DNA from: Winogradskyella sp.
Lineage (GTDB): Bacteria > Bacteroidota > Bacteroidia > Flavobacteriales > Flavobacteriaceae
Direction: 5' to 3'
DNA: 50,059 nucleotides
Assembly (NCBI GenBank): GCA_030149175.1
Contig: JASBSA010000025.1
Span: forward strand, 1 to 50,059
Positions 1,387 through 49,438 of the stretch are shown here, in pieces. The notes beneath the pieces were generated by a model that was not told the origin of the DNA, did no database searches, and saw only the letters and a list, made by a program, of their open reading frames with translations. The number at the start of each line of letters is the position of its first letter. Within the stretch, counting starts at the first letter, position 1. Made by a program: the position numbers and the translations under genes.

Positions 1387-3162
1387 TTGAAAACCAATTC
1401 AAAATCCATAGCTGTACTTCCCTTTGTCAATATGAGCAATGATATTGATAATGAGTTTTTCTGTGATGGTATTAGCGAAGAAATCATAAATGCCCTAACC
1501 AAAATAAAGGGTTTAAAAGTAATTGCAAGAACCTCTTCATTCGTCTTCAAAGGAAAGGATATCGATATTAGAGAAATTGGTAAACAATTAAGTGTCAATA
1601 CAATTCTTGAAGGTAGTATAAAAAAGTCTCAGGATAATATTAGAATAACAGCACAGTTAATCGACGTCAAAGATGGCATACATTATTGGTCCAAAAAGTA
1701 TGACAGAAAACTAGTAAATATCTTCGATTTAGAGGATGAGATTAGTTTAGCTATTGCAGATGAAGTTCGAAATAATTTTGGGCACTTTGAAGTACAAGAC
1801 CAATTAATAAAACAACCAACTAATAGTATTGATGCCTATCAATTATTTTTAAAGGGACGCTCACTACAATTAAAATGGACACCAGAAAGCATCAAAGAAG
1901 CTATTACCTTCTACGACAAAGCTATTGCACTTGATAACAGATATGCAAGAGCCTATTATGCTAATTTGCAATGCTACGGCTTATTGGCAATGTGGGGCTA
2001 TATGCCATATCAAGAAGCTATGGAATTGGCTATAAGCAACCTTTTAATAGCAAAAGAAATAGATACTTCTTTACCAGAATATCCTTTGTCTTTTGTAGGC
2101 AAGTTTTTCTGGGAAGAATGGGATTTTAAAAATGCATACATACATATAAATAAGGTTTTAGCAATAAATCCAAATCACATAGATGGTTTAGAAGCTATGG
2201 CAGAATTGTGTATTGCTCTTGGATTCTTTGATAAGGCTATAATCTTTGCTAATAAGCTATTGGAAGTAGATCCGCTTTCAGCAAATAACCACTACACCTT
2301 AGCACACACTTGCTACTATCAGCGTAAATTTCGTAAAGCTTTAGAGTGTATTGAATACGCATTAACACTTAATCCTCAATTAGAATTAGCGCATCATCTA
2401 AAATGTTTCTGTTTAATATGGTTGAATAAGGCTGAGCAGTTTAAAACTTTTATTCAGAATACATCATTACAAGAAGAAAAAAACATGCTGTTTAATCTTG
2501 TTAATAAAAAGGATACAGTAATAACAAATGAAGCCATTTCAAATTGGTCTAAAGGAGGTAATGAAGCTACAATGCTAGTGCCATATGACGTGTTTATTCT
2601 AAGCAACTCAGATCATAAAGAACTTGGATTTTCGAGATTAAAAGAAATGATTAGTCAAAGACGTGGACAAATTATTAACTACAGACAAGAACCTTTTTTA
2701 CAACCCTTACATAGCATAAAAGAGTTTTCAGAATTGCATCAGTCTAACTTGTTCATCGAAGATATTGAAGTGTCTAAAAAAGAGGAAGAAAAACTAACTT
2801 CAAATATTCTGAATAATCAGCTAATAGAAACTTTAAAAAAAGAGTTACTTACATATTTTGAAGAGGAAGAACCTTATTTAAACCCTCAATTAAGTTTAAA
2901 ATTTGTTGCAGATGTTTTAGGTCTGAACACTAATAAAATGTCGTATTTAATTAACCAAGCGTTTGATACAAATTTTAATGATTTTATTAACCAATATCGT
3001 CTCAACCATTTTAAAACAATAGCGATAGATCCTAAAAACTCGCATTTAACTATTCTTGGTTTAGCCTACGATAGTGGTTTTAATTCTAAAAGTGTGTTTA
3101 ATACATATTTTAAAAAAATAGAAGGACTTACACCGAGAGCTTGGTTAAAAGCCAATTCGTAG
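1387..3162 (+). CDS. AraC-type transcriptional regulator with N-terminal TolB/FlgO-like domain and TPR repeats
   Basis: N-term KSIAVLPFVNMSNDIDNEFFCDGISEEIINALTKIKGLKVIARTSSFVFKGKDIDIREIGKQL (TolB-like), central TPRs, C-terminal AraC HTH (KMSYLINQAFDTNFNDFINQYRLNHFK...SGFNSKSVFNTYFKKIEGLTPRAW). Start is TTG directly after an in-frame TAG. Confidence 0.85.
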   Translation: MKTNSKSIAVLPFVNMSNDIDNEFFCDGISEEIINALTKIKGLKVIARTSSFVFKGKDIDIREIGKQLSVNTILEGSIKKSQDNIRITAQLIDVKDGIHYWSKKYDRKLVNIFDLEDEISLAIADEVRNNFGHFEVQDQLIKQPTNSIDAYQLFLKGRSLQLKWTPESIKEAITFYDKAIALDNRYARAYYANLQCYGLLAMWGYMPYQEAMELAISNLLIAKEIDTSLPEYPLSFVGKFFWEEWDFKNAYIHINKVLAINPNHIDGLEAMAELCIALGFFDKAIIFANKLLEVDPLSANNHYTLAHTCYYQRKFRKALECIEYALTLNPQLELAHHLKCFCLIWLNKAEQFKTFIQNTSLQEEKNMLFNLVNKKDTVITNEAISNWSKGGNEATMLVPYDVFILSNSDHKELGFSRLKEMISQRRGQIINYRQEPFLQPLHSIKEFSELHQSNLFIEDIEVSKKEEEKLTSNILNNQLIETLKKELLTYFEEEEPYLNPQLSLKFVADVLGLNTNKMSYLINQAFDTNFNDFINQYRLNHFKTIAIDPKNSHLTILGLAYDSGFNSKSVFNTYFKKIEGLTPRAWLKANS

Positions 3163-3186
3163 TAAATCGTATTAGTTCGTTTCAGA

Positions 3187-3260
3187 TTATAATTCAGGAC
3201 GATTGTTTTTGCAATCTGATGAATCTTTGCACCATCATTAATAATCAAAAACGAACAGTT
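3187..3260 (+). promoter_or_regulatory. Upstream regulatory block of the serine hydrolase at 3261, shared with 5952-6030
   Basis: ATTATAATTCAGGACGATT...ATCTTTGCACCATCATTAATAATCAAAAACGAACAGTT aligns with the block upstream of 6045. Confidence 0.6.
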
Positions 3261-4340
3261 ATGACAACTTTACACAAATTCTTATTAGTATTTATAGCAG
3301 CAACAGTAATGCTGCTTACATCTTGTTCAAGAGATGACGACAATAACACTTCAACATTTAACTACACAACTACTGAAAATTTATTAACAGAAATTGATTT
3401 TCAAGGGTACGCCATTGTAACTAAAAATGGAAATGATTTAGTACGTCAAGGTTTCGGTTTAGCAAATCAAACCACAACATTGCCACAGGATTATGAATTA
3501 GCATACCGAATTGGTTCGGTATCTAAAACGCTTACAGCAGCAGCTATTATTCAACTAAAGCGTGATGGTTTTATCTCTAATTTCAATCAAACTTTAGACG
3601 AATTTGATTCTGAGTTTCCTAACGGCAATCAAATAACAATCGCACATTTATTATCGCATCAATCAGGTATTCCAGATTATCAATTTGTAGTTGAAGATGC
3701 TTACGAACAAGGCGAAATTATGGACGAAGAAGATATTTATGAAGTTATTACTTATTTGATTTCAGAAAATGGTCTAAACTTTACACCAGGAGCAGGAAAA
3801 CAGTATAGCAATTCTAATTACCTTATCGCAGCTTTATTGGTTCAAGAATTAACTCAAATGCCTTATCATGAGTACATTCAACAAAATATTTTAAATCCTT
3901 TAGTGATGACTAATACCTATAAAGGTACTAATACAATTAACACTAATACACATGCAGAAGGTTATAACAATGGTAGCGCAAACAGTACCTACCCAATAGC
4001 TATTGCATTTGGCGCAGGAGATTTTAGTAGTACACCAAAAGATATGGAAACGTGGACTAATGCAGTAAAAACAAATTGGTTCTCAGCTTCTGAAAAAGAT
4101 GAGATATTCGCCCAAGACGTGCCAAGTGGCTACGTTGATTTTGGCTTGGGTTGGTTCACTACACAAGAAGGTAATACCACACTATACTGGCATGGTGGTG
4201 ATATTAATGGCTATTGGAGTATGATTGGTTTTATACCAGAATACGATGCTACAATTGTACTGTTAAGCAATCAACAAGACGATTCTGGAGAACAGCGTAA
4301 TACCATTATAGAGCAACTTTTAACTAACGAATTCAATTAA
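3261..4340 (+). CDS. Serine hydrolase, class C beta-lactamase/DD-peptidase fold, lipoprotein
   Basis: In-frame ATG at 3261 gives lipoprotein signal MTTLHKFLLVFIAATVMLLTSCS; SVSK (SxxK), YSN and HGG motifs. The ORF-track start at 3141 lies upstream of the conserved regulatory block. Confidence 0.85.
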   Translation: MTTLHKFLLVFIAATVMLLTSCSRDDDNNTSTFNYTTTENLLTEIDFQGYAIVTKNGNDLVRQGFGLANQTTTLPQDYELAYRIGSVSKTLTAAAIIQLKRDGFISNFNQTLDEFDSEFPNGNQITIAHLLSHQSGIPDYQFVVEDAYEQGEIMDEEDIYEVITYLISENGLNFTPGAGKQYSNSNYLIAALLVQELTQMPYHEYIQQNILNPLVMTNTYKGTNTINTNTHAEGYNNGSANSTYPIAIAFGAGDFSSTPKDMETWTNAVKTNWFSASEKDEIFAQDVPSGYVDFGLGWFTTQEGNTTLYWHGGDINGYWSMIGFIPEYDATIVLLSNQQDDSGEQRNTIIEQLLTNEFN

Positions 4341-4365
4341 AATTCAACCTAAAAACGCACAAATA

Positions 4366-5232
4366 ATGCAACACACCAATATATTATTAGCTGGCGCTAC
4401 AGGTTATTTAGGCAGGCATTTATTAAAGGTTTTAATCGAAAAACAAAACCAGGTTGTTGCTATTGTCCGAAAACTAAATCAATTAGAAAATCATAATGAG
4501 AACTATCTAGAGATAAAGCAAGCCGAAGTAACCAAACCTGACACCTTGAAAGATATTTGTAAAGGTATAGATACAGTTATTTCGTGTGTTGGTATTACAC
4601 GACAAAAAGATGGTTTAACCTATATGGATGTGGATTTTAAAGCCAATATGAACTTGCTAGAAGAGGCTAAAAAAAGCGGTGTTAAACACTTTGTGTACAT
4701 CTCAGCTATTAACGGAGATAAATATCGGAATTTGAAAATATTTGAAGCCAAAGAAAAGTTTGTCGATGCCTTAAAAGCCTCAGGATTAAACTATACTGTA
4801 GTAAGACCAAATGGATTTTTCTCTGATATGAAAGACTTTCTACAAATGGCAAAATCTGATCGTGTGTATCTATTTGGATCAGGTCATCAAAAATTTAATC
4901 CCATTCATGGAGAAGATTTAGCAAAAGCTATTGTAGATACTTTAGAGGATTATAATAAAGAGTTAACCGTTGGTGGACCAGATGTTTTAAGTCTTAATGA
5001 CATCAGTAAACTAGCGCTAACTTCATTAAATAAACCTGTTAAAATAACTCATTTACCAGATTGTTTAAGACGATTAACCATTTGGACTTTAAGAACCTTT
5101 ACATCTGTTAAAACCTATGGTCCGATCGAGTTCTTTCTAACCTTAATGGCAGATGATAATATCGCACCAACTTATGGACATTATCATTTAAAAGACTATT
5201 TTAGAGAAGAAGCTAATATACTAGAAATATGA
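4366..5232 (+). CDS. NAD(P)-binding SDR/NmrA-like epimerase family protein
   Basis: [14 protein letters not shown] Rossmann motif, [39 protein letters not shown]. Confidence 0.85.
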
Positions 5233-5846
5233 AAATTCCTGATCCAAACACAGTTTACCCGTTACCTAATTACAAAAAACTTTGTTTTTTGAAAAACTAT
5301 ATCAATAACCCTAATATTGAGATTGGTGATTACACCTATTATGACGATTTTGAAGATGTTTCCAATTTTGAAAAAAATGTGAAATACCATTTTGATTTTA
5401 TTGGTGATAAACTTATAATTGGTAAATTTTGTATGATTGCTTCAGACGCTACATTTATTATGAATGGTGGCAATCATTTAACAGAAGCCACATCTGCTTA
5501 CCCATTTGCCATATTTGGTGGTAATTGGCAACATGCAATGGATGGTAAATCCTATCCAAGCAAAGGCGACACTATCATTGGTAATGATGTTTGGATTGGT
5601 CATGATGCTACCATTATGCCTGGTGTTAAAATTGGAGATGGTGCTATTATCGCAACAAAAGCGGTGGTTACAAAAGACGTAGAACCTTATACCATTGTTG
5701 GAGGTAATCCCGCGAAACCTATCAAAAAACGTTTTTCTGCAGCTACCATTTTAAAACTATTACAGTTAAAATGGTGGGATTGGGATATTGAAAAAATCAC
5801 TAAAAACTTAGAAAAACTAACTTCTCATCCCGAAGCATTGCTTTAG
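5229..5846 (+). CDS. CatB/Vat-like xenobiotic O-acetyltransferase (left-handed beta-helix)
   Basis: [86 protein letters not shown]. Overlaps the previous stop by 4 nt. Confidence 0.85.
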
Positions 5847-5868
5847 GATAAAAACCCTAAGAACTAAT

Positions 5869-5905
5869 AAAAGGCTTAACACTAAACTGTTAAGCCTTTT
5901 TCTTT
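5869..5905 (+). terminator. Rho-independent terminator
   Basis: AAAAGGCTTAACA-ctaaac-TGTTAAGCCTTTT followed by T-rich tract. Confidence 0.85.
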
Positions 5906-5951
5906 TAGTGATAAAATTAAGCATTAGTACTAAATATCAAAAAGGTACCGA

Positions 5952-6030
5952 ATCATAATTCAGAACGATTAGCCTTCATTTCTATCGCATATTTGTAACA
6001 TCAAAATATCAATCAAAAAACGAACAATTA
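5952..6030 (+). promoter_or_regulatory. Upstream regulatory block of the gene at 6045, shared with 3187-3260
   Basis: ATCATAATTCAGAACGATT...CATATTTGTAACATCAAAATATCAATCAAAAAACGAACAATT. Confidence 0.6.
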
Positions 6031-6044
6031 AATACTTATCAAAA

Positions 6045-6689
6045 ATGAAAAAACTATTAATAATCTGCTTAACACTTTTTACACTAAATGTTTTTGCACA
6101 AAACAACACAGAACCATCAAAACACAGTGACACGGATTTAAAATACAGAGTTAGCTTTCCTGCTATTATACTAGGAAATATTGGTAAAGGAGGAGAAAGA
6201 ACCAATACTCAACACATCGAATTTCATATTAAGCGCGAACTAGATGCTAAAAATATCATAGGTCTAAAATTTGCTACATGGAGATTATTTCAGCCTATGG
6301 GTATTCAATGGTGGGACGGACTTACAGACAAAATAGATACGGAAACTGAATTTTATCCGGGTTATTTGCGTGAAACAGGTATAGGAATATCCTATCAACG
6401 CATGCTTTGGAAAGGTTTATTTGCCTCAGTCGAAGTTTTACCATTATACAAAACCTATCTAGACCTTGACAACAAGAAAATAGCCAATGGATTTAAACTC
6501 TACAACTCATACCATGTTGGTTATCATTTTACTTTTGGTAAAAAGAAACAGTTTTTTATAGAACCACAATTTCATTGTAATGTATGGCATTTTGACACCA
6601 ATACGCCAGAATCATTTAAGCAACTCAACAATAAATGGGATTCCTATTTCCTATTTGAACCCAACCTTTATATTGGCATAAAGTTTTAA
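6045..6689 (+). CDS. Secreted or outer-membrane hypothetical protein
   Basis: Signal peptide MKKLLIICLTLFTLNVFAQ; alternating aromatic/polar segments and C-terminal Phe suggest a small beta-barrel; no family recognised. Confidence 0.6.
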   Translation: MKKLLIICLTLFTLNVFAQNNTEPSKHSDTDLKYRVSFPAIILGNIGKGGERTNTQHIEFHIKRELDAKNIIGLKFATWRLFQPMGIQWWDGLTDKIDTETEFYPGYLRETGIGISYQRMLWKGLFASVEVLPLYKTYLDLDNKKIANGFKLYNSYHVGYHFTFGKKKQFFIEPQFHCNVWHFDTNTPESFKQLNNKWDSYFLFEPNLYIGIKF

Positions 6690-6725
6690 CTTATAAAACC
6701 ATCTTATAATTCTAAAACTAACATT

Positions 6726-7841
6726 ATGAAACACATATTTCTAGGTTTAATATTTTTGGTTGGATTATCAGCTATTGCTCAGCAAACAACAGAAACAATA
6801 ATTAAACAACGATTTAAAACTGAATTAGAAAAGGGAAATATAAAAAGTGGAATACTACACGTGTATTCTGAATCTCGTGGGATTGACATTCAAATGGCGG
6901 AAAGTAAAGAAGATTCTATTTCAATAGATTACCCATTTTACACAGCCAGTGTTACCAAAATGTTTACCGCAACAGCAATTGGTATTTTAAAGGATCAAAA
7001 TAAATTGAATTTTGATGATAAAATCGCTCAATATTTACCAGATACATTAATAAACAATCTCCATATTTTGGATGGTAAAGACTATTCAAAAGATTTAACC
7101 ATTGTGCATTTATTACAACATACGTCTGGTTTACCTGATTATTTTACAGACCAAACCAAAGATGGGAGTCCAAACATCATTAATCAGGTATTGATAGATC
7201 CCAACAAATCTTGGCATGCCATAGAAATGATAGAGTTTACTAAAGAAAAAATGACACCTCGTTTTATTCCTGGTGTAGGTTATCATTATACTGATACAGA
7301 ATATGTCCTTTTAGCTTTGATTATTGAAAGCATAAGTGGCTTAACTTTAGACGAGTTCTTTAAGCAGCACATTTTTCAACCATTAAAAATGAATGGTTCT
7401 TATATCAACTTAAAATCATCTCCTTTAGATAATAAGCTTCCAATAGTTAAGTTTTATGCAAGTCAATACGAGTTATCATCACTTAAAAGCTTAAGTGCAG
7501 ATTGGGGAGGCGGCGGATTAGTTGCCACTACTGAAGATTTAATTACTTTTTTAAAAGCTTTTAATAAAGATACCATTTTAAAGAAAGAAACACGCTTAAC
7601 CATGCAAAACTGGTTGTACGAAACTAAAGGTATGGAATACGGATTAGGGATAAGAAAAGTTTCTATTGATAAGTTAACCGATAAAGAATCAGACTTACAA
7701 CTCATTGGTCATCCTGGTGCTACTGCTTCGTTTTTATGGTATTGTCCTCAATTGGATACATATATTTCTGGCACATTAAATCAGCTAGAGGCTTCTAAAA
7801 GCGCAATGATTTTAGTTTATGATATATTAATGGCTATTTAA
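6726..7841 (+). CDS. Serine hydrolase, beta-lactamase-related
   Basis: Signal peptide; SVTK (SxxK), YTDTEY (YxN-like), GHPG motif. Confidence 0.85.
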   Translation: MKHIFLGLIFLVGLSAIAQQTTETIIKQRFKTELEKGNIKSGILHVYSESRGIDIQMAESKEDSISIDYPFYTASVTKMFTATAIGILKDQNKLNFDDKIAQYLPDTLINNLHILDGKDYSKDLTIVHLLQHTSGLPDYFTDQTKDGSPNIINQVLIDPNKSWHAIEMIEFTKEKMTPRFIPGVGYHYTDTEYVLLALIIESISGLTLDEFFKQHIFQPLKMNGSYINLKSSPLDNKLPIVKFYASQYELSSLKSLSADWGGGGLVATTEDLITFLKAFNKDTILKKETRLTMQNWLYETKGMEYGLGIRKVSIDKLTDKESDLQLIGHPGATASFLWYCPQLDTYISGTLNQLEASKSAMILVYDILMAI

Positions 7842-7974
7842 AGTTCTAAATATACCATTTCTAATAAATTAAAATTTAAGTATTAATCAGTGAACACAAA
7901 CCGAACACGATTTAACATTTTACAAATTTTTAAAGTATTGAAAATCTGTTATTTAAAATCTGATTTTATCAATT

Positions 7975-8016
7975 CATAACCTAGAGGTCTCGAGTTCAAA
8001 TCTCGATCCCGCTGCA
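7975..8016 (+). other. 3' fragment of a tRNA gene (likely CAT anticodon), candidate att site
   Basis: CATAACCTAG-AGGTC-TCGAG-TTCAAAT-CTCGA-TCCCGCT-GCA: anticodon loop remnant, variable loop, perfect 5-bp T-stem with canonical T-loop, acceptor 3' strand. Expected 5' acceptor AGCGGGA and D-arm are absent upstream (AT-rich). Confidence 0.75.
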
Positions 8017-8039
8017 AAAGATTGAATTACACGATATCG

Positions 8040-8068
8040 ACGGTTTAGTTCACGCTAAACCGTTTTTT
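8040..8068 (+). terminator. Rho-independent terminator downstream of the tRNA fragment
   Basis: ACGGTTTAG-ttcacg-CTAAACCGT-TTTTT. Confidence 0.75.
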
Positions 8069-8089
8069 ATATATCCTATTTAAGTCAGA

Positions 8090-12253: not shown

Positions 12254-13957
12254 TTAAAGTTTTTTGTCGGTGTCTGTAATTGGATCATAAGATGTTCCTG
12301 TTTTACCTCTCAGTTTTTCAAACTGTTTGTAAGCGCGCTCAACTTGTTCTTTTGGCCCTTGCTTAAATTCCTCGTCAGTGACTTTATATTTTTCTTGAAG
12401 TTCGGCAAGTTGTGTTCTTAGTTCAGATTCAATCTCATCGTATTCAGGATTATTAATTTGATTGTTTATTTCCTTTGGATCTTCTTCTAAATCGTACAAT
12501 TCCCAAGTATCAATATCATCGTAAAAATGCATCAACTTGTAACGCTTGGTTCTAATGCCGTAGTGCTTTTTCACCATATGAAATGCTGGATAGTCATAAT
12601 AATGATAATACACAGCATCTCTAAAATCTTCGTTTTTATTATAGGTTTTTTCTAGCAATGGACGTAACGACTTACCCTGCATATCGTTAGGAATTTCAGC
12701 TTGTGCATAATCCAAAAACGTTTCAGCAAAATCGAGATTTTGGGTTAAATCTTCGATGACCGTTCCCGGTTTAATAGCTTTAGGATACTTTACCAATAAA
12801 GGCATTGCCAACGATTCTTCGTACATATAACGCTTGTCAAACCAGCCTTTTTCACCTAAATAAAAACCTTGATCGGTCGTGTAAATAACGATGGTATTTT
12901 CGGCTAGACCGTTTTCTTCCAAGTAATCCAATACTCTGCCAACACCTTCATCTACCGATGCGATGGTTGCTAAATACTCTTGAAGATAGCGCTGTCCTTT
13001 CCACTCGGCCAATTCCCTACCCGAAAGATTGGCTTTATGAAAGGCATCGTTTTTTGGCTGATAGGCTCTATCCCAAGCGGCGCGTTGTTCTGGTGTCATA
13101 CGTTCAAAATCGGTTTTCCAAGGATTCCAAGCCAGTTCTGGACTTCCTTCTTTTTTAGTCATTTTTAAATCGTGACCTTCATACATATCCTTGTAAATGG
13201 TTTGTTGCTGGTCTTTTGAGCCGAGTGATCCTTCGTGTGCTGTAAAATAAGTTTCCGGTAACGGGAATTTTATAGAATCGAATTTATTGACGTGACGCAA
13301 TGCTGGCATCCAATTTCTATGTGGTGCTTTGTGCTGAAGCATTAACATAAAAGGTTTGTCAGAATCTTTTACACGCTCTAAATACGCCAATCCGTCTTCG
13401 GTGATAATATCTGTAGCATAACCTTCAATTTGAGTGGTATCGGCTTCTTTTGTGGTTTCATTCAAACCGATAAAATCAGGATTGTAATAATTCCCCTGGT
13501 CTTTTAAGATATGCCAATAATCAAAGCCTTCAGGATTGCCGTGCAAATGCCACTTTCCGATCATTGCGGTATTGTAGCCGGCCTCTTGAAGCAACTTAGG
13601 AAAGGTTTGTTGACTGCCATCAAAACGGTTGCCGTTCATTCTAAAGCCATTAACGTGACTAAACTTTCCCGTTAAAATCACAGCACGACTTGGTCCGCAA
13701 ATAGAATTGGTACAAAAGTTATTTTTAAACAACGCACCTTCTTCTGCAATTCGGTCGATGTTTGGTGTTGGTGCCAATTGACTGATGGGATGACCATACG
13801 CACTAATGGCTTGTTCGGCGTGGTCATCTGCCATTATATATACAATGTTTGGTCTTTTTGAGTTCTCGACTGTGCTGGAACTGACATCGTCTTTGGTCTT
13901 TTCTTTACAAGATTGAAAAGTTAAAAGGCCTATTAATAAGATTGAAATATATCGCAT
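12254..13957 (-). CDS. Sulfatase (S1 family, Cys-type formylglycine)
   Basis: RPNIVYIMADDHAEQAISAYG, CGPSRAVILTGK (C-x-P-S-R maturation motif), GKWHLHG; lipoprotein signal. Confidence 0.93.
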   Translation of the reverse strand: MRYISILLIGLLTFQSCKEKTKDDVSSSTVENSKRPNIVYIMADDHAEQAISAYGHPISQLAPTPNIDRIAEEGALFKNNFCTNSICGPSRAVILTGKFSHVNGFRMNGNRFDGSQQTFPKLLQEAGYNTAMIGKWHLHGNPEGFDYWHILKDQGNYYNPDFIGLNETTKEADTTQIEGYATDIITEDGLAYLERVKDSDKPFMLMLQHKAPHRNWMPALRHVNKFDSIKFPLPETYFTAHEGSLGSKDQQQTIYKDMYEGHDLKMTKKEGSPELAWNPWKTDFERMTPEQRAAWDRAYQPKNDAFHKANLSGRELAEWKGQRYLQEYLATIASVDEGVGRVLDYLEENGLAENTIVIYTTDQGFYLGEKGWFDKRYMYEESLAMPLLVKYPKAIKPGTVIEDLTQNLDFAETFLDYAQAEIPNDMQGKSLRPLLEKTYNKNEDFRDAVYYHYYDYPAFHMVKKHYGIRTKRYKLMHFYDDIDTWELYDLEEDPKEINNQINNPEYDEIESELRTQLAELQEKYKVTDEEFKQGPKEQVERAYKQFEKLRGKTGTSYDPITDTDKKL

Positions 13958-14844
13958 TACTCTTTGGTTTTTATAATTTTTGTTTGAATGACTTCATCAT
14001 TAAGCATTGTACGTTCAAAAAAATTGAAAACTATATCCAATTCTTCGTATGGGATCCTTGAGATTTCGTGTCGCGCATCTTTAACAATGTTGAAATAGTA
14101 AGACGTTTCAAATTCATCTAATTTATTTGCAATAATTTTAGAACCATCCAACATTATATAACCATCTTTAGTTGAATCGCAGTAGTGATGTGGCGCGTTA
14201 CCAAAAGGCACCAATTGGTCTTTTGTACCGTGATATAAAACCGCAGGAACCGCATTGTCCGTGGTTAGATAACTGGCATCTACCATTGCGCCAGCACAAG
14301 AAAACACTCCTGCAAATTTCACTTCGCTATACGCTTCTGCATTGTCCACAAAATATTCGCGCATAAAAACCGCATTTAAAATGCCTTCTGCACCTGCGCT
14401 ACTGCCACCAGCAATGATTTTCGTGGTATCGATTTGAAGTTCATTAGCGTGTTCAACCACATATTTTGCGGCATCCATATAATCGATTGCAGCTTGTTTA
14501 AAGGTTTCCAATTTTTCGTCTTTGGTACAATTGCAACCAAAACCTGTTGACGTTCCTTTTCTGAGCAAACGATATGAGATTGAAATACCAATATAATTCT
14601 GTTCTTTTGCAGCGTATCTTACCAAGTTTTCATCGTCTATATAATCCCTGTGGCCCACTGCAAATCCGCCACCGTGCATCCAAAGTAACACTGGTAAAGT
14701 ATCTGATTTCTTAATGTTTTCTGGTGTATAAACATCTAGTTTTAGTGTGTCATTCCCTTTTATAGCGTAGGTGTATGTCGCTTTGTTTTGTGCTGAAAGT
14801 GATAACACAAAAAAGAATATAAAAACTTTTATTAAAATTTTCAT
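13957..14844 (-). CDS. Alpha/beta hydrolase (HSL/carboxylesterase-like), secreted
   Basis: Signal peptide; MHGGGFAVG oxyanion motif, GGSSAGAEG nucleophile elbow. Confidence 0.85.
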   Translation of the reverse strand: MKILIKVFIFFFVLSLSAQNKATYTYAIKGNDTLKLDVYTPENIKKSDTLPVLLWMHGGGFAVGHRDYIDDENLVRYAAKEQNYIGISISYRLLRKGTSTGFGCNCTKDEKLETFKQAAIDYMDAAKYVVEHANELQIDTTKIIAGGSSAGAEGILNAVFMREYFVDNAEAYSEVKFAGVFSCAGAMVDASYLTTDNAVPAVLYHGTKDQLVPFGNAPHHYCDSTKDGYIMLDGSKIIANKLDEFETSYYFNIVKDARHEISRIPYEELDIVFNFFERTMLNDEVIQTKIIKTKE

Positions 14845-17445
14845 TTAGTCCAATTTTTCAATTAAAATACCGCTAATCACAGGCAAACCTTTAACGGCAT
14901 TGAGCTTTAAGGTTAAACCTTTTTTCGTTTGAATATTAGTCTTAAGCGTTACGCCATATTTTTCAGGATAAGCTTGGGCTAAATTCAATTGCTTTTCGAT
15001 TAATTTGTCGTTAATATATACATCAAAAATGCGTTGTTTTTTATCCGTTTCAGAAGTGTTACCTGAAAGGTTATAAATGTTTTCGGTTGGTTTTATTTGT
15101 GGCTCAACAAAATATAAGGTCACGTCGTAATTGCCTTCTAGAACGTCCACTTTATATTCTTCACAACCTTCTAGCAAGGTTTGGAACAAAGGTTCTGCAT
15201 TGGTGTTTTTGATATTATGTGGCAGACCTTGATTTTTGTCTTTGGTCATTCTGTAAGCTGTTCCGTTTTTATGACCAAACCAGCCTTCTTTATAAGGTTG
15301 GTCTGGTACAAAAGTGATGTTTTGTTCTTCATCATAAAAATTGAAATGCGACCCAATGTTGATTCCTAGTCGCTTAAAATCAATAAAATCTAATTTTCCA
15401 ACACGATTAACTTTTATTATTTTTTCTTCGGAAATAATTTGAGCTGAAACCTTAATTTTGTTGTTTCCATTTTTGAAAGGCATATCGATAGTTACCGAAC
15501 CATTTTCAACTTTATAATCACCTAAATTATTCTCATTTAAACTTACGCTTACCTCACTTTCATTTGAATATATTTGAACTGGAAATGTTTCATTTTGAAA
15601 CAATGTTAATCCTTTTAAATAATCCGTTGCGATATGAACTACTGGTGTATCATCCTCTAAAACCGATTTGTACCAATAGTAGATATCCTTTGGTGTTCGG
15701 TCGTATTGCACAAGTCCTTTTTGATTAACGTGCGGAATGGCATCACCTCGAAATTCCGAACCAAAATCTGCAAAATTCCAAGCTGTCATTCCCGTTATAA
15801 AAGGTCGGTCGGTAATCTGTTTGTAGTACGATTGATGCAGTTTTGCTTGATAATTGGTAGAAAAATCGAACTTTTTAGGCGTTTTGGTAAAAATCCGAAC
15901 ATCAGCACCAGGACCATATTCTGACAATAAAAGCGAACGATTTGGAAAACGTTTATGCTGCTCATCCAGAAATTTTCCTAAATCTTCGATCTGTTTATCG
16001 TACCAACCAAAATAAAGATTCCAGCCCAAAAGCATTGGTATATCCGCAATACCTGTTTCATTATACACTTCTGAATTATGGCAAGCCATAACTGTTATGT
16101 GATTTGGCGCTAGTGTTCTGGTTAAATCTTCAAGCTGTGTAGCTAATTTTAGTGATGTCTTTTTTAATTCGGTTTTTTCTTCGTCTGTTAAATTTCGGTT
16201 GAAAACCAAACGAATAAAAATTTCATTCATATATCCAAACATTACGACAGAAGGGAAATTGTGATACTGTTTGATATGCTCTTTTTGCATATTTAGACTT
16301 GTTTCAAAATAACTTTCTGAATCTGATACCAGATTTATTACAGGTATTTCTGTCCAAACTAAAATACCGAGTTCATCACAAAGCTGATAGAGTTCTCTGT
16401 TGTGTGGGTAGTGAGCAAATCGAATGACATTTGCGCCCATACTTTTTATGAGGTGAATATCTTGTTTTTGCAACTCGATTGGCACGGCGTTACCGTAGTC
16501 TTTATAATCTTGGTGGCGATTAACACCTATTAATTTAATCGGTTTTCCATTTAAAAAGAAACCTTTTTCTGGGTCTACAGTCGCCCAACGAAAGCCTAAA
16601 TTAGACTCTTTTTGATCTAAAACGGTTCCGTTTTTATCACTTAAGGTCAGTTGTAACTTATACAAATACGGATCGTCTGGTGACCATAATTTTGGATTCT
16701 TAATATCTGGATAATTAACTTCAATGGTTTTTGTTTCGTTTGCTTTCAGTTTAAGTCTTTGATGGTCTTCTCTAAAAAGATTTCCTTCAGCATCAAAAAT
16801 CTTAAGTTCTAAATGTGTTTCGGTTTTTTTATCAAAATTGTCAATTAAAACTTTAACCTTAACACCAGCTTTTTCATTGGAAACATCGTAGTAATTCACA
16901 TAAAAACCTTCGGAAGCAAAATCCTTTAAACTAAAGTGCTGCTTGGGAACTTTTATTAATTCGACATCTCGATAAATTCCACCGTAAAAGGTGAAATCCG
17001 CATCTAATGGTGGAATATTAACGTTATGGGAATTATCGACTTCAACTTCAATTAAGTTATAAGCATCGAAGTTTAAAAACGATGTGATATTTGCATTAAA
17101 AGCTGTGTAACCACCTTTATGATTCACAGCTTTTTTGCCGTTTACAAAAACTGTAGCTTCTTGATTAACCGCATTAAATTTTAAGTAAAATATTTGGTCT
17201 TTGTCTTCTGAAGACACAAAGATTTGCTTCTTGTAATAACCTAATCCACGACGATAGCCACGCTCATCATTAAAGGCATCATCCTTGTTCCAAGTATGAG
17301 GAATGTTTACGATTTCCCAATTGGTTTTATCTTCGGAATATTGCCATCCAGAATTAATAGTTTTTGATTGTGAGACACAAAAAAAAGGGGAAGCCACACA
17401 CAACATAAAGCTTAATAAAAACATTCTATGGTTTATGTGTGGCAT
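14845..17445 (-). CDS. Glycoside hydrolase family 2
   Basis: IPHTWN, GYRRGLGYYKK, GVNRHQDYKDYGNA, MGANVIRFAHYPH, GYMNE (acid/base), LLSEYG (nucleophile); malectin-like C-terminal region. Confidence 0.9.
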   Translation of the reverse strand: MPHINHRMFLLSFMLCVASPFFCVSQSKTINSGWQYSEDKTNWEIVNIPHTWNKDDAFNDERGYRRGLGYYKKQIFVSSEDKDQIFYLKFNAVNQEATVFVNGKKAVNHKGGYTAFNANITSFLNFDAYNLIEVEVDNSHNVNIPPLDADFTFYGGIYRDVELIKVPKQHFSLKDFASEGFYVNYYDVSNEKAGVKVKVLIDNFDKKTETHLELKIFDAEGNLFREDHQRLKLKANETKTIEVNYPDIKNPKLWSPDDPYLYKLQLTLSDKNGTVLDQKESNLGFRWATVDPEKGFFLNGKPIKLIGVNRHQDYKDYGNAVPIELQKQDIHLIKSMGANVIRFAHYPHNRELYQLCDELGILVWTEIPVINLVSDSESYFETSLNMQKEHIKQYHNFPSVVMFGYMNEIFIRLVFNRNLTDEEKTELKKTSLKLATQLEDLTRTLAPNHITVMACHNSEVYNETGIADIPMLLGWNLYFGWYDKQIEDLGKFLDEQHKRFPNRSLLLSEYGPGADVRIFTKTPKKFDFSTNYQAKLHQSYYKQITDRPFITGMTAWNFADFGSEFRGDAIPHVNQKGLVQYDRTPKDIYYWYKSVLEDDTPVVHIATDYLKGLTLFQNETFPVQIYSNESEVSVSLNENNLGDYKVENGSVTIDMPFKNGNNKIKVSAQIISEEKIIKVNRVGKLDFIDFKRLGINIGSHFNFYDEEQNITFVPDQPYKEGWFGHKNGTAYRMTKDKNQGLPHNIKNTNAEPLFQTLLEGCEEYKVDVLEGNYDVTLYFVEPQIKPTENIYNLSGNTSETDKKQRIFDVYINDKLIEKQLNLAQAYPEKYGVTLKTNIQTKKGLTLKLNAVKGLPVISGILIEKLD

Positions 17446-32234: not shown

Positions 32235-35027
32235 TTATTTAATATTTAACAAATAATCTGTCAAAGAAATATCATTTTCTAAACTTAATTTCTTTTTTAG
32301 TCGGTATCTGTGTGTTTCTACACCTCTGACAGAGATATTCATCAATGGCGCAATCTCTTTATTCGCTAAATTCATTTTGATGTAGGCACATACTTTTAAA
32401 TCTTTTGGTGTTAAAACTGAATGACGTGTTTTTAACTTAGTAAAAAATTCATCATGTACTTGATTGAAATTCTCTTCAAAAACTTCCCATTCATCCTTAT
32501 GCTCTATAGAGTTGTTCAATTTCTTGATTAGTTTTTTGTAAGCGTAGTAATCTTTAAACCCTTCCTTGTTAACGGCTAACTCTCTTTTAATATCTTGAAG
32601 CACTTCATTTTTTTTAACTAAGGCCATTGCATTATTAGCTAATTGCTTACTCTTTATTTTCAATTCATTTTGTAATGATTCATTCTTTAACTGTACTATA
32701 TGTTTTTCGTTTTCTAAGGTCTTTTCGCGCAAAAGTTTTTGTTGCTCTCTTTGATATTTAATACGCATTAAGCGCTGCTCTTTTTGAATTTTTCTGTGGT
32801 GCAAATAATAAAACAAGCCAATTAAAGTCAATAATACCAATACATACAGTAGTAGACCAATAGTTCCCTTATACCAAGGTGGACTAACATCTAATTTTAA
32901 CTTTTTAGCTACTGACGTATTGCCAGAATCGTCTATTGTTCGTAGTAAAATATCATATAAGCCATGGTTAATATTGTTTAGTTCAAGATTTCTGTTATCA
33001 ACTTTAAACCAGCCTTCGCTCAAACTAGGTATACTATACTCAAAAAAATGATTAGTAGAATTGGAAGAAGAAAGCTCTAAATTTATACTCTCGTTGTATT
33101 TTATTTTAATAGTACTACCATCTTTTATTGATGATAATTTTATCTCAATACCATTAATCTTAACAGATTCGATTTTAGGCTTAAAAACAATAGTAGTATC
33201 TTTAAATGTCTCGTCTATTAGCATGAAACCATTATCTAAATTCAGAGCAAAAAGAGAGTCATTTATTTTAGAGACATGTTCGTAATCTACGATATACCTA
33301 TTCTTTATTAGCTTGTTGTTTATTTTTGTCTCGACGCTATCATTATTAATGTACTTAAAACTTATAACACCATTTTTATCTTTTAGCACAATTGGGCTCA
33401 TTGATTGCTCTGATATAATATATGAATGCTTGCCAAACTTTTCATTTAATAAATCAAAAGGAACAATGGAATCTAGCAAAGGTTCATACTTTTGCCATCC
33501 ATTATTAGTTTTAAAAACTATATCGTTTCTTAAGTTGTACACTCTTGGATTATACTCAGAATCTAAACCTCTAATTCCATAATTAGTGATTTTTGTTATG
33601 GTATCATAGGACTTGTTAAAATTAACTTTATACACTCCTTTATATGCATGTGCAACCCATGCTGTGTAAGGGTTTTCAAACACTAAAAATCTTGACGGGA
33701 TTGTTGTTTTGCCCATATGTTTGGTTTCCCACTTACCACTCTTTTGCTGAAACTTTACTAAGCCTGCGTAAGTTCCCTGCATGTATAAATTATCATGCTC
33801 CGGTACTTTTTGGATGGTCCATCCTCCTGTAAAATCCGATATCTTGGTTATTTGGTTTTTCTTGACTAAAAAAGTTCCCTCGTTATGACCACAAAACAGA
33901 TTACCATCAATAATTTTCAGATCCCAAACCTGACCTTGCGAGCCGTCAATAAAGTTTAAATTATTACTCTTATCTAAATAAAAAAGCCCTGTATTGGTAC
34001 CGATGTAAAGTAGATCTTGATACTTAACAATATCATACACAGCACCTAATTTACCAGAAACATCATTAAAAAAATAGCTCGTATTCTTTAAGTCTATACT
34101 TGCTATTCCGTTATCTAGACCTAGCCATAGATTATCGTTTTGATCTAAAAATTGCCCCAATACTGTATTATTGAGAAGACCATTCTCCTTACTAATATGA
34201 AATTTAATTTCACCCTTACTATTTGCTATATAAACACCATCTTTTATAGTGCCAAAAGCCATGTCTCCATTTTCTAACTTAGAAAACTTATTTAATTGGT
34301 GCTGCTTTATCTCGTTATTAAAAGCGAATTTTGTAGGCCGTAATTTTTTAGCATTTAAATAGAAACTTCCTTTGAGCGAAGTCAATATTAAATATTGATC
34401 TTCCTTTTTTACTATAGATATAATTTTTGTGTCTTTAAGAACTTCATCAGAAAAAAATGGTACCAAGTTTTTATTTTCAAGCTTATATATACCATTATTT
34501 AAAGTAGACACAAGTAAATCGTTATCTACCAAATTCAGGGATATTACAGCAGAACTTGGTTGAATCCGATCTACGTTTTTAAAATCATAAACATATATAC
34601 TAGAAAATGATCGAAAAATAACTTTATTCTCATAACTTAAAATTTGCCAAATTTCCTCATTAGCAGAAATCTGAGGTTTTATTAAGTCGCTTAAGGATTG
34701 ATAGACTAAATGTCCGTAATCGTTCTCTTCCCAAAAACCAAACTCTTCAAAAGAGCCTGTGAAAATTAAATTATTAAACGCTAAAACAGACCTGACCGTA
34801 GTTTGGTTTGGTAGCTGAAATAACTTCCAATCTAACCCATCATACTCTAATAAACCAATGTTGTTTGCAACATACACTTTTCCATTTTCGGCTCTACAAA
34901 GATCCCAGTTTTGGTTACTGGCCTTATATTCTGCTATAGAGTAGTTATAAATATTTGGTGAAAATTGGCAATGGCATACAAAAGAGAAATAAGAGCTAAA
35001 GAGTAAGAAAAGAAATATTTTTTTCAT
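32235..35027 (-). CDS. SusR-like one-component regulator: beta-propeller repeats, Y_Y_Y domain, TM, LuxR-type HTH
   Basis: Signal peptide from MKKIFLFLLFSSYFSFVCHC (start 35027), propeller-like repeats, TM GTIGLLLYVLVLLTLIGLFYYL, C-term LTPKDLKVCAYIKMNLANKEIAPLMNISVRGVETHRYRLKKKL; no histidine-kinase motifs seen. Confidence 0.85.
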   Translation of the reverse strand: MKKIFLFLLFSSYFSFVCHCQFSPNIYNYSIAEYKASNQNWDLCRAENGKVYVANNIGLLEYDGLDWKLFQLPNQTTVRSVLAFNNLIFTGSFEEFGFWEENDYGHLVYQSLSDLIKPQISANEEIWQILSYENKVIFRSFSSIYVYDFKNVDRIQPSSAVISLNLVDNDLLVSTLNNGIYKLENKNLVPFFSDEVLKDTKIISIVKKEDQYLILTSLKGSFYLNAKKLRPTKFAFNNEIKQHQLNKFSKLENGDMAFGTIKDGVYIANSKGEIKFHISKENGLLNNTVLGQFLDQNDNLWLGLDNGIASIDLKNTSYFFNDVSGKLGAVYDIVKYQDLLYIGTNTGLFYLDKSNNLNFIDGSQGQVWDLKIIDGNLFCGHNEGTFLVKKNQITKISDFTGGWTIQKVPEHDNLYMQGTYAGLVKFQQKSGKWETKHMGKTTIPSRFLVFENPYTAWVAHAYKGVYKVNFNKSYDTITKITNYGIRGLDSEYNPRVYNLRNDIVFKTNNGWQKYEPLLDSIVPFDLLNEKFGKHSYIISEQSMSPIVLKDKNGVISFKYINNDSVETKINNKLIKNRYIVDYEHVSKINDSLFALNLDNGFMLIDETFKDTTIVFKPKIESVKINGIEIKLSSIKDGSTIKIKYNESINLELSSSNSTNHFFEYSIPSLSEGWFKVDNRNLELNNINHGLYDILLRTIDDSGNTSVAKKLKLDVSPPWYKGTIGLLLYVLVLLTLIGLFYYLHHRKIQKEQRLMRIKYQREQQKLLREKTLENEKHIVQLKNESLQNELKIKSKQLANNAMALVKKNEVLQDIKRELAVNKEGFKDYYAYKKLIKKLNNSIEHKDEWEVFEENFNQVHDEFFTKLKTRHSVLTPKDLKVCAYIKMNLANKEIAPLMNISVRGVETHRYRLKKKLSLENDISLTDYLLNIK

Positions 35028-35273
35028 TTTAGTTAATCTAGGTATACGTTGCATGATTGAAGTGCTTAAAATAAAGAATATAATGAACTCTACTAAAACA
35101 ATTAGAAACATTTATATAAATTAATTATTAAAGCCAATTAAATAAAAGTACAACATTCAGTATAATTTTATGTTCAAAAAATAAACCTTATTGTAGTGAT
35201 TACATAAGCGTAATCTTATTGAAAAATATCGTTGTTATAAGTACTTGTTTTTAATGTAAACCGGAACCAAAAT

Positions 35274-35303
35274 ATGCATTTCATCGATTTTTTTTGCTTT
35301 TTG
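35274..35303 (+). promoter_or_regulatory. T9SS-gene upstream motif, copy 1
   Basis: ATGCATTTCATCGATTTTTTTTGCTTTTTG; 24/28 match with copy 2; starts 93 nt upstream of the ATG. Confidence 0.6.
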
Positions 35304-35366
35304 TGGATTATTATTAGAATAAAATGATATATTAGCCACCAAATAAATTCATTAAAACCCCAACTA

Positions 35367-38300
35367 ATGAGAAAAACTACCTACTTTATCTCACTATTGT
35401 TCTTTGTTGTGCTAAATTCTTATGCTCAAGAAAATTACTCTAGAATAAAAATTTTAAACCCTTCTCAAGAAACTATTAATATAATTGCCTCAAACGGTAT
35501 TGATTTGAGTTGCGGTTCACATCATGATCATCAAGAATTAATTCTTGAGTTATCTCAAAATGACATTGATCTTCTTGTTGAAGACAATATTCAATTTTCA
35601 ACAATTATAGATGATGTTTCCTCATTCTATACACAAAGAGCTCAAAGTACAATGCATAGAAGAACTAGAGCTCCTAAAAAAAATAAGACTAACAACATAA
35701 TGTCTAAATCCATATCTAGCGTTGTTCAAGATAACATCATACAATATTATGGTAGTAGTGAAATAGATTTTGTAGAGCCTCAAAATTTCCCAGATGTAAA
35801 TTCACTAAGTATGGGTGGTTGTCTTACGCTTAGCCAGATGAAAGACCAATTAGACGCAATGTATGCTTACTCCCAAACAAATAGTCTTGATATTATATCT
35901 CAAAAGGCAAATGCTTCATCTACTGGTCAAAAAACTTGGGGTAATCCAACTAATAATTTTCCAAATCCACAAAATAACGGTCCATCAACATATTCCGGCA
36001 CAGGAAGTACAAGATGGAATCCAGAAACAATTTGGTATGTGCGTATTACAGGAAACGAAAGTACTACACCTGAAGGGACAAAGCCTCAAATGCTATTCAC
36101 TTCTATGATACATTCTAGAGAGGTAAGTGCTTTAATGAACAATATTTACTTTATGTGGTATCTGCTTGAAAACTATAACACAGATCCTGCTATTAAAGAA
36201 TTGGTAGATAACAATGAATTGTATTTTGTACCTGTAGTTAATCCAGATGGTTTACGCTACAATGAAGTTACTAACCCTTCTGGTGGTGGTATGCAGCGTA
36301 AAAACCTTAGACCCTACAGCGGAACCACAAACCCAAGTAGAGGTGTAGATTTAAACAGAAACTTTGATTATTATTGGGGATTAAACGGTATTGGATCCTC
36401 AGGAACATCAACTAGTGGAACATACAGAGGGCCAAGCCCAGAGTCTGAGCCTGAAACACAGATTATGGTAGATTTTATAACTAGCAGAAACTTTAAGTCT
36501 GCTGTTTGGAATCACTCATATGCTAACTCTGTACCTCACCCATATGGTGGTGACCCTAATGCAAATACAGATAGAGAAGACGAATACTACAGATGGCATG
36601 AGGAAATGACTAGATATAATAGATATCTTTATGGCGCTACTATATTCTATGAATCAAACGGGCTACCAGATGACTGGATGGTCGGTGGTTCCCCTGACAA
36701 TAATGGTTCTACTGGTCTTAATGCTTATGGGCAATCTATTATTGCTACAACACCTGAGCATGGTAGTAGTAGCGATGGTTTTTGGCCAAGCCGTTCTAAT
36801 ATTGTGCCAATTGCTAAGAGATCTATGCGTATATCGCTAGGAACTGCATATTATGGTGGTAAATATGCAAAACTTCATGATTTAACCCAAAGCAATATAA
36901 CTACCACATCTAATGTTGAACTAGACTTTGGTATAGAAAGAATTGGACAAACACCAAGTGATTTTTCTGTAACAGTAACTCCTATTTCATCAAATATAAC
37001 TACAGCTTCTCCAGTAACAGTAACTGCTAGTGGAATTCAGATTAACACAACCACTAATTCTTACAGAAATCAAACAGAAGTAACAGCTCTTATAGATCTA
37101 GACCCATCTATAGCTGCTAATGATAAAATAGAATACAATGTTAAGTTCTCTAATGACGATGGTGTAATATATGAAGCTAACTTTGTAAAATATTATCAAC
37201 CTACAGTATTGTTTAGTAATTCTCCAGATACTGATGGTTTAACTGGTTGGACACAATCTGGCGGTTGGTCAACAACTTCTTCTGATGCTTACTCAGGAAG
37301 TACTTCGATTAACACAGGTACATATTCAACCAATGCAACAAAAACATTAACAACAACAAATAGTTTCGATTTTTCAAATTCAAACGAAGTTCTTATTCAG
37401 TTTTACTCTAAATGGGATATCGAAAGAAACTATGATTATGTAGAAGTATTAGGTTCGCCTGATGGTGGTTCTAACTGGGTATCGTTAAGCGGTAAATACA
37501 CAAAACCAGAAGCTACTAGTACCACAACTAACCATGACAATAAAAGTTCCAGCTATTCAACTTTCCAATCTGGAAGTAGTGGGAATATTTATGATGGAGA
37601 TAGAATGGATAATTGGGTAATGGAAGAGTTTGTTATTGATGACAGCTACTCTACTCTGCTAAATTCTAATGATGTAAGAATTAGATTTAGATTCAGAACA
37701 GATGCTCTTAATGTAAACGAAAGCTACACAACAACAAACGATGGTTACTTTATAGATGATTTTAAAATTATTAGCTTACAGATCCCTTGTGAAACAACAG
37801 TACCGACTAACTTGGCTGCAAATTCAATAACTGCCTCTACTGCAGAAATTACTTGGGATAATATTCCTTCTGCAACATACGATTTAAGATATAGAGAAAC
37901 TGGATCTCCCAGTTGGACAGAATTTACAGATATTACTGGTGCAAGCTATTCTCTAACGGGTTTAAATATTACAACAGATTATGAAGTACAAGTAAGAAGC
38001 AGATGTGTTTCTTCTACTTCTGCTTATTCTGCTTCAGAAAACTTTACCACAACAGATCTAGTGTATTGTACAGCTGGTGGGTCAACCATTGCTGATGAAT
38101 TTATTGGTGGAGTTTCTTTAAATGGAACTTTGAACGATACTTCTGGTAGCACATCTTCTGGATATTCAGACTTTACAGGTTCTTCAATCTTTGAACCTAT
38201 ACAAGTTGGAAGTACAGGAAATAGTTTATCCATCACTAAAATATGGACTGGCTCACAATTTAATGAAGCTGTATCAGTATGGATTGACTTTAACAGAGAT

Positions 38301-40103: not shown

Positions 40104-40117
40104 AATCTTATACTTTT

Positions 40118-40153
40118 AAAAAAAGCCGAAGACAAATTCTTCGGCTTTTTTTA
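40118..40153 (+). terminator. Rho-independent terminator
   Basis: AAAAAGCCGAAGA-caaat-TCTTCGGCTTTTTTT. Confidence 0.9.
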
Positions 40154-40215
40154 TAGAAAATTGACAAAATGAATAAACAGCTAGAAACTTTTTTAATATA
40201 AAATTCTTACATAAA

Positions 40216-40243
40216 ATGCATTTCGTCGAATATTTTTGCATTT
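40216..40243 (+). promoter_or_regulatory. T9SS-gene upstream motif, copy 2, overlapping a TAnnTTTG-type -7 element
   Basis: ATGCATTTCGTCGAATATTTTTGCATTT; starts 88 nt upstream of the ATG; contains TATTTTTG. Confidence 0.6.
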
Positions 40244-40303
40244 AAAAGATATAAACACTATGTTTGAAGCATAATTTTAGTCCCAAACTAAACTTAACCG
40301 CTT

Positions 40304-45790: not shown

Positions 45791-45820
45791 TTTTGCCCCA
45801 AATCTTAAATCTTAACCACA

Positions 45821-45852
45821 AAAAAGCCCTGATTAAATCAGGGCTTTTTCTA
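45821..45852. terminator. Bidirectional terminator between convergent genes
   Basis: AAAAAGCCCTGAT-taa-ATCAGGGCTTTTT. Confidence 0.9.
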
Positions 45853-45870
45853 TTTTACATGTTTCTAAAT

Positions 45871-47508
45871 TTACTTTAATGTAGATAACAGTTCTTTAAG
45901 ATTTAATTTATGCTGGTCTCCTGTTAGCATGTTTTTAAGGGTGTAAAAACCAGAATTCATTTCCTCTACTCCTACTAAAACCACATAAGGTATATTACGA
46001 CGATTGGCATGCGTCATTTGCTTTTTCATTTTAGCATTATCAGGATATAACTCAGCTTTTACTCCATTTTGTCTCAATTGGGTTACCGCTTGTAAACAAG
46101 CCATTGCTTCTTTATCTACAAACTTGATAAAAAGTACTTTGGTTGCATCTGCATTTGTTTCTTGAAAAAGATTAAGCTCTTCTAATACCAAATAAATACG
46201 ATCTAACCCAAAGCTGATACCTACTCCACTGGTATCTGGTTTTCCAAAAATGCTGGTTAAATCATCATAACGACCTCCACCACCAATAGAGCCCATTTTT
46301 ACACCTTCTGGTGCAGCAACCTCAAAAATAGCACCTGTATAATAATTAAGTCCTCTGGCAAGTGTTACATCTAATTGAAGGTTAGCTGTTTTTAATCCTA
46401 ATTTTGAAATGGCAGCATCTATAAATTCTAATTCTTCAATGCCTTTTAGTCCAACTTCTGAAGTATTAAGTATTGATTTTAAGCTTTCTACCTGAGTACC
46501 AAAATCACCTTTTAAAGAAAATAAAGGTTGAAGTTTAGAAATACCTTCTTCTGAAATGCCTTTGCTACGCATTTCTTCTTTCACCTTCTCCTCACCTATT
46601 TTATCGAGCTTATCTAAAGCTACCGTGAAATCAATAAGTTTATCTTGAGCTCCAATAACTTCTGCAATACCAGATAAAATTTTACGGTTATTGATTTTTA
46701 TGGTCACTCCTTTTAAATCTAAAGCAGTAAACACAGCATCATAAAGCTGAACAAACTCAACTTCTTGAAACAATGATGTAGAACCAACTACATCTGCATC
46801 ACATTGGTAGAACTCTCTAAAACGGCCTTTTTGCGGACGGTCTGCACGCCAAACAGGCTGAATTTGATAACGTTTAAACGGAAATTCAATCTCATTTTGA
46901 TGCTGTACTACATAACGTGCAAAAGGCACTGTAAGGTCGTAACGAAGAGCTTTTTCTGAGATTTTAGAAGTTATATCTTTTGATTTAATATTCAAAAGTA
47001 AGTTAGCATAAATCATAGCCAATGACTTATTCCTTTCTTCTTCATTTTTTAATTTATAACTTGAATTAATGAGAGAAAACACATGTTGCAATACCTCATC
47101 AGCCGGCAAGTTGTTTAATGTTTTATTTTTGCCACTTAACCTTATTGAGTCCTTAAACTTCTCTACAAATTCAAATCTAGAATTTCTTGAATTCCAATCC
47201 GTGGTATCTTCCTTTTCTTCTATGATTTTTCGATAAAATACTTCACCTCCTCTTATTGCAATATCAATTCCCTTTCTGACTTCATCAAAATAATCACCAC
47301 TATTCAAAATTTTAAAAATCAAACGGTCACCTTCATCTCCATATTTACCCATTAAGGTTTCTGAGTTTTCAAAACTTGGAGTTTCAATCGGTTGAAATCC
47401 GTATAACTCAAATTGCTCCTTTATAATATTCATTATATAAGAACGTTTTGCAACCTCTACTGCATTAAAATCTCTGGTACCTTTTGGAATACTTGGTTTT
47501 TGCGCCAT
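45871..47508 (-). CDS. hisS: Histidyl-tRNA synthetase
   Basis: [112 protein letters not shown]. Confidence 0.97.
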
Positions 47509-47512
47509 AACA

Positions 47513-47535
47513 TTTCCTACAAAAGCAGGAATCTC
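47513..47535. repeat. Short REP-like repeat copy 1
   Basis: TTTCCTACAAAAGCAGGAATCTC; shares AAAGCAGGAATCTC with 48922-48944. Confidence 0.5.
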
Positions 47536-47678
47536 TTTTTTAGTGAAACTTCATATTTAAGTCACAAAAATATTATAATTTTTAGAGGCATACCCAAGTA
47601 ATTTTAAATTTATAGTAACTTTATGGTGTTTGGGACGTCTTATGGTTTTAAACAACCCAACTAACTATAGACACAACT

Positions 47679-48920: not shown

Positions 48921-48921
48921 A

Positions 48922-48944
48922 ATTACTGCGAAAGCAGGAATCTC
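48922..48944. repeat. Short REP-like repeat copy 2
   Basis: ATTACTGCGAAAGCAGGAATCTC with CTGC-gaaa-GCAG hairpin. Confidence 0.5.
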
Positions 48945-48959
48945 CTCATCGCTTAGAAA

Positions 48960-49433: not shown

Positions 49434-49438
49434 TAGAA

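Follow-up and report, generated by a model that had tools for sequence, protein, structure and literature searches.

A displaced tRNA-Met(CAT) 3′ half as the probable seam between stacked genomic island layers in Winogradskyella sp.

Tycheposons and similar marine islands carry tRNA-targeted cargo together with tyrosine recombinases and partial tRNA copies. They belong to another phylum, and as generally described they resemble the locus reported here in being tRNA-targeted cargo islands.

The usual hallmark of an island inserted at a tRNA gene is a displaced tRNA 3′ fragment (Islander, PMC4383910; tRNA fragments, PMC9897764). The Islander method calls an island where a 3′ fragment lies downstream of the tRNA gene, in the same orientation, at a distance of 2–200 kb. 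Islands of its anticodon-centred crossover class have an intact tRNA gene, a displaced co-oriented 3′ fragment and a tyrosine integrase beside the tRNA, as is seen at this locus in complete relatives, whereas the present locus appears to consist of stacked layers, with the integrase of the older layer gone and with the tRNA and the fragment on different contigs of this bin (PMC4383910). For the 10K genomic island of Riemerella anatipestifer, which resides at tRNA-Arg, integration and excision have been shown by experiment, and its 53-bp repeat comprises the tRNA 3′ end and a terminator-like hairpin, the latter as read from the printed sequence (PMC6764341). That island has the same order as the locus described here, the integrase lying directly downstream of the tRNA, but it uses tRNA-Arg and is experimentally proven, whereas ours uses tRNA-Met and is known from sequence. 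In KplE1-type prophages, the tRNA and integrase genes are likewise co-oriented, and the attachment region that follows the tRNA already contains the start of the integrase gene; they possess a dedicated self-repressed promoter, whereas here a hairpin forms the 5′ leader (PMC2951348). The event described below is of a well-known kind, here with unusually clear anatomy, and a limited literature search found no description of its stacked structure and attachment-site anatomy.

The window analysed here is a 50,059-nt stretch of Winogradskyella sp. (assembly GCA_030149175.1, contig JASBSA010000025.1, positions 1–50,059 of the forward strand). Genomes, contigs and loci are denoted by G, C and L numbers. 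As in the Islander islands, the window contains a displaced tRNA end fragment without its other half. This fragment is very probably the 3′ end of a tRNA-Met(CAT) gene displaced by a tyrosine-integrase element, forming the seam between stacked island layers at a single insertion hotspot (Table 1).

Table 1 Features of the window around the displaced tRNA fragment.
Coordinates	Strand	Feature	Evidence
1387–7841	+	Left block: AraC/TPR regulator, two serine beta-lactamase-fold hydrolases, NmrA-like reductase, hexapeptide transferase, one unknown	Pfam, orthologues
7890–7913	+	Arm-like repeats GTGAACACAAACC and GAACACGATTT, putative P arm of the element attachment site	Same position at 19 of 34 scars; G054/G055 alignment
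7972–8015	+	Displaced tRNA-Met(CAT) 3′ half (anticodon loop to 3′ end), without 5′ half	DNA search against C92, ARAGORN, genus survey
8016–8068	+	Spacer and element-type hairpin (stem 8039–8064, T run)	Homology to the C92 spacer and hairpin that separate tRNA-Met from the integrase ATG; fold −13.7 kcal/mol, z −3.1
8065–8089	+	Stretch from hairpin to transporter stop, perhaps decayed old integrase start (ATATATCCTATTTAAGTCA)	G063 alignment; origin judged by eye
8090–35111	−	Polysaccharide utilization locus (PUL): sugar transporter, GH43, sulfatase, GH2, two GH3, glucoamylase-like protein, TonB-dependent receptor, large protein (32235–35111)	Pfam; synteny with G001 and G063
35270–50059	+	Conserved chromosome downstream of tRNA-Met: two large T9SS-tail proteins, hisS (minus strand), MacB-like permease, others	Alignment with relatives

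The tRNA fragment, its intact counterpart and the hairpin

The preliminary description had proposed a tRNA 3′ scar without a 5′ half at 7975–8068. The letters at 7975–8014 were as described (CATAACCTAG, AGGTC, TCGAG/TTCAAAT/CTCGA and TCCCGCT), with the CAT at 7975–7977, and the DNA search revealed an intact tRNA-Met(CAT) gene with the same 3′ sequence in the same genome bin (C92:2348–2422), having 85% identity to window positions 7972–8068 (97 nt, E 3.5e-23). Only the part from the anticodon loop onward aligned (query positions 32–127 of 131), and the 5′ half was missing. The proposed scar was right in its letters, with two points amended: the match begins at 7972 (ATTCATAAC) and not at 7975, and homology extends beyond the tRNA 3′ end, across the spacer and hairpin up to 8068. 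Matches were found in 25 of 40 genomes in the DNA search of relatives, the window’s own genome included. The fragment differs from the C92 copy by point changes such as CCTAG for CCCGG and TCCCGCTG for TCTCGCTA. ARAGORN called no tRNA anywhere in the 50-kb window, and Rfam at a relaxed threshold detected the intact C92 tRNA but gave no tRNA-like match at the fragment. The name tRNA-Met follows ARAGORN, and the CAT anticodon could also mark tRNA-Ile2. Judged by these alignments, the fragment is a genuine displaced 3′ half of a methionine tRNA gene. It has decayed by point changes and probably also because an arm repeat was lost, and its activity as an attachment site has probably ceased.

On C92, the ATG of a 467-aa integrase follows directly after the hairpin downstream of tRNA-Met, in agreement with the earlier expectation of a tyrosine recombinase beside the intact tRNA. 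The protein matched Pfam Phage_integrase (PF00589, E 9.6e-10, above the curated cut-off) and PHROG integrases, and by this catalytic domain match it is a predicted tyrosine recombinase. R313, R410, H440 and Y449 were invariant in an alignment of seven sequences, and the box II histidine position, read by eye from the alignment, is apparently occupied by Tyr407. Its relatives in phages and plasmids were distant only, the best being from a Leeuwenhoekiella phage with 38% identity over 63% of the query. No integrase was present in the window at 1–7.97 kb, where the contig ends at base 1, and the window and C92 are not linked.

Across the genus, the recurrent order was tRNA-Met, short spacer, hairpin (ACGGTTTAG...CTAAACCGTTTTTT) and integrase ATG. 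Another terminator type (CAGTAAAAGTCTAG...CTGGACTTTTT) followed several intact tRNA-Met genes without the element and also lay behind many displaced fragments. This pattern is the one predicted by integration, in which the tRNA would acquire the hairpin carried by the element and the displaced 3′ half would take the old terminator along; the two predicted terminator types tell chromosome from element. The window fragment bears the element-type hairpin. The terminator at 8040 had been taken for the original chromosomal one; it is instead of the type that precedes integrase genes, unlike the terminators after many other scars. The stretch following the hairpin is common to the window and G063, and was compared with integrase starts of the genus and with a truncated integrase in G065. 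By eye, it may be what is left of the first codons of a former integrase gene.

Fragments and arm-like repeats across the genus

A survey of 69 genomes of the genus with the tRNA and hairpin as the query yielded, by a count made by eye, about 36 matches that lack the 5′ half, spread over about 27 genomes, and 35 of these matches were examined. All ten fragments on the same contig as their tRNA were located downstream of it on the same strand, 4–36 kb away; the genus-wide order was tRNA, element, scar and core, and the orientation of the window fragment relative to the core is the predicted one. In the single-contig genomes G065 and G059, the integrase lies between tRNA-Met and the fragment, with the same kind of seam as in the window. 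Both are complete tRNA-Met elements, measuring 27–28 kb from tRNA to fragment (L074–L075 and L086–L087) and carrying type I restriction-modification genes, GmrSD-type genes and KAP or helicase genes. No phage structural gene was recognised among their scanned proteins, and these elements are read as putative defence islands. Tandem seams with an intact integrase occur in G066 and G080. Some fragments derive from the initiator tRNA-fMet and not from the elongator gene, with similar hairpins (L019, L047, L106, L114, L116–L119). A related integrase follows tRNA-fMet fragments in G005 and G002, so the integrase family may use both Met tRNA genes. In G041, at about 101480–101510 of C41 (L072), between the left block and the core, ATTCTATAACCTAGCTTTATAG resembles ATTCATAACCTAGAGGTC of the window, and is possibly a worn-out fragment, or a chance resemblance.

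The GTGAACACAAACC–GAACACGATTT repeat is located 57–82 nt left of the window fragment. Its 11-mer GAACACGATTT, at 7903–7913 and 69 nt left of the fragment, is the sole match in the window at ≤1 mismatch. Significance based on this count was rejected, one match being about the chance level; only the position at many scars is informative. The motif was located between −40 and −130 at 19 of the 34 fragments with enough left flank, with about 0.003 expected at each, an enrichment that is not a clean probability, as the fragments are mutually related and the motif was picked after some of them had been seen. The block in the window is near-identical to those of G054 and G055, which have one more repeat in the alignment. 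Integrase genes contain two to three tandem copies of the same 12-nt unit near their start, encoding EHDLEHDLEH, and the repeats occur, strongly enriched, on both sides of the core of the attachment site. Given the near-constant distance from the fragments and the recurrence inside the integrase gene, the repeats are probably arm-type sites of the integrase; in the simplest reading, those left of the scar and those within the integrase gene represent the two putative arms of attP. The presence of such repeats left of the scar indicates that the left side would be the element end.

A wider model, which we put forward tentatively and consider rather doubtful as a whole, is that the tRNA-Met elements encode candidate arm sites within the N-terminal frame of the integrase (the EHDLEHDLEH repeat) and carry the hairpin directly upstream of the integrase start codon, where it follows the restored tRNA. 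Integration would then place the integrase under tRNA-Met read-through gated by the hairpin, and the family would also use the initiator tRNA-fMet.

Layers on either side of the scar

On the left side, orthologues of the gene at 3141–4340 were found in 14 of the 69 genomes, with the neighbouring genes beside them in most of the regions fetched. The left block is located at the tRNA-Met locus in five relatives (G041, G054, G065, G066 and G072) and elsewhere in G003, G048 and others, and is absent beside the PUL in G063 and G001. Pfam and PHROG searches of the block recognised no genes for phage structure or for transfer. The arm-like repeats and the orthologues at tRNA-Met in five relatives bear out the earlier placement of an element to the left of the scar, and we read the left block as the putative distal cargo of the last element. 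In G054, G065 and G072, however, a scar separates the tRNA side from the block, which is found towards the core; the role of distal cargo of the newest element does not therefore apply in every genome.

On the right side, the core begins near 35.27 kb, where G041, G054, G065, G001, G072 and others join. The core ABC permease was downstream of tRNA-Met on the same strand in all 34 genomes with both on one contig, at 6–91 kb in 33 of them. Within the core, window positions 47292–50059 are 97% identical to G065 and the adjoining 40831–46983 are 82% identical; the sharp identity step suggests a recent recombination near 47.0–47.3 kb.

The 27-kb PUL between the scar and the core has a more varied distribution. 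The closest genome at the PUL is G001, in which the transporter is 96% identical and the PUL ends at the same transporter, followed by ssrA; tRNA-Met of G001 is found on a different contig, where the core follows it and the PUL is missing. The stretch from tRNA-Met to the core likewise lacks the PUL in G041, G054, G065 and G072. In other relatives, the PUL is near tRNA-Phe (G016 and G011) or beside other genes (PUL loci compared: L052, L059 and L060). In the single-contig genome G063, the PUL is positioned between tRNA-Met and the core, as in the window, and the two have in common the transporter-side junction (part of the hairpin and about 20 nt) and the core junction; in G063, however, no tRNA fragment precedes the hairpin next to the PUL. 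The interval from tRNA-Met to the PUL in G063 encodes, at about 12600–16240 (L096), a CarboxypepD-reg/TonB-receptor-like protein (807 aa) and a 377-aa protein with a PepSY-like look. No second scar and no arm repeat were found at the right edge of the PUL (35.1–35.27 kb searched). Since G063 has the PUL in the same place and shares both junctions with the window, the PUL would have adjoined tRNA-Met in this lineage until the last integration took place, and by this comparison it is an older accessory layer. The view that the right side is wholly foreign to the tRNA locus, suggested by the ssrA placement in G001, was dropped after G063. The preliminary description had taken everything right of the scar for original tRNA-downstream chromosome. 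That it was tRNA-downstream before the last integration holds, but 8.09–35.0 kb would be an older island layer and not chromosome.

Order of insertions and alternative explanations

The order of events was inferred from relatives. The attP of the element would contain a tRNA 3′ half, and a tyrosine integrase would recombine it with attB in the anticodon loop; the tRNA would be restored by the element’s copy, leaving the old 3′ half displaced at the opposite end of the element (attR). The locus as it stood before the last integration would have consisted of the tRNA, an element hairpin, the PUL and the core from about 35.27 kb, the hairpin beside the PUL having been left, in this scheme, by an older element whose integrase has since decayed. 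A later element with the left block as distal cargo would then have inserted. From this order of insertions, the scar would be the seam between two island layers.

The idea that the fragment is a chance resemblance or a non-tRNA hairpin gene found no supporting evidence and is refuted by its match to an intact tRNA gene with its flank and by the genus-wide pattern, which leave it a negligible probability. Assembly or binning could in principle have fused sequences that do not belong together at the fragment: the bin, at 75% completeness, is split into 160 contigs, and the hisS/permease core region, which occurs once in nearly every relative, is present twice in it (window 42740–50059 on C28 and G000:C40:1–9720, 83–88% DNA identity). 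The bin therefore mixes two organisms, and C92 may stem from another cell than the window, so that its certain assignment to the window’s own cell was dropped; the mixed bin leaves the identity of the fragment untouched. The PUL-side junction is, however, common to G063, and the same kind of seam is present in the single-contig genomes G065 and G059, making such an artefact very improbable; the 15% difference between the fragment and C92 also means that it is not a collapsed repeat.

More closely related to the stacked-layer reading are two other histories of the same DNA. The account in the preliminary description, in which a single island lies to the left and all DNA from 7.98 kb rightward, with the PUL, is original tRNA-downstream chromosome, agrees with the position of the PUL between tRNA-Met and core in G063. 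It appears unlikely against the element type of the hairpin, the five genomes that run from tRNA-Met to core without the PUL, and the PUL beside ssrA in G001. A stronger competitor, which we consider quite possible though not the favoured explanation, treats the PUL as cargo of its own tRNA-Met element whose integrase by the hairpin was lost, so that two integrase elements would form a true tandem array, with the fragment at their seam. The element-type hairpin and possible integrase start directly left of the PUL are consistent with this, as are the tandem seams in G066 and G080; the right edge of the PUL, lacking both scar and arm repeat, and the location of the PUL beside ssrA, tRNA-Phe or other genes elsewhere argue against it. 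These varied sites indicate that the PUL may have come by another route. We retain the reading of the scar as a seam between stacked layers, very probably created by a tyrosine-integrase element.

For the genus, the locus provides a simple key: the type of hairpin that accompanies a tRNA fragment hints at the nature of the adjoining DNA, either chromosome or an older island layer. The attachment-site anatomy, with putative arm-like repeats inside the integrase gene, is directly testable. A single tRNA-Met locus would serve as a genus-wide stacking site for accessory DNA, including type I restriction islands, a carbohydrate utilization locus and metabolic genes, between tRNA-Met and the conserved hisS block.
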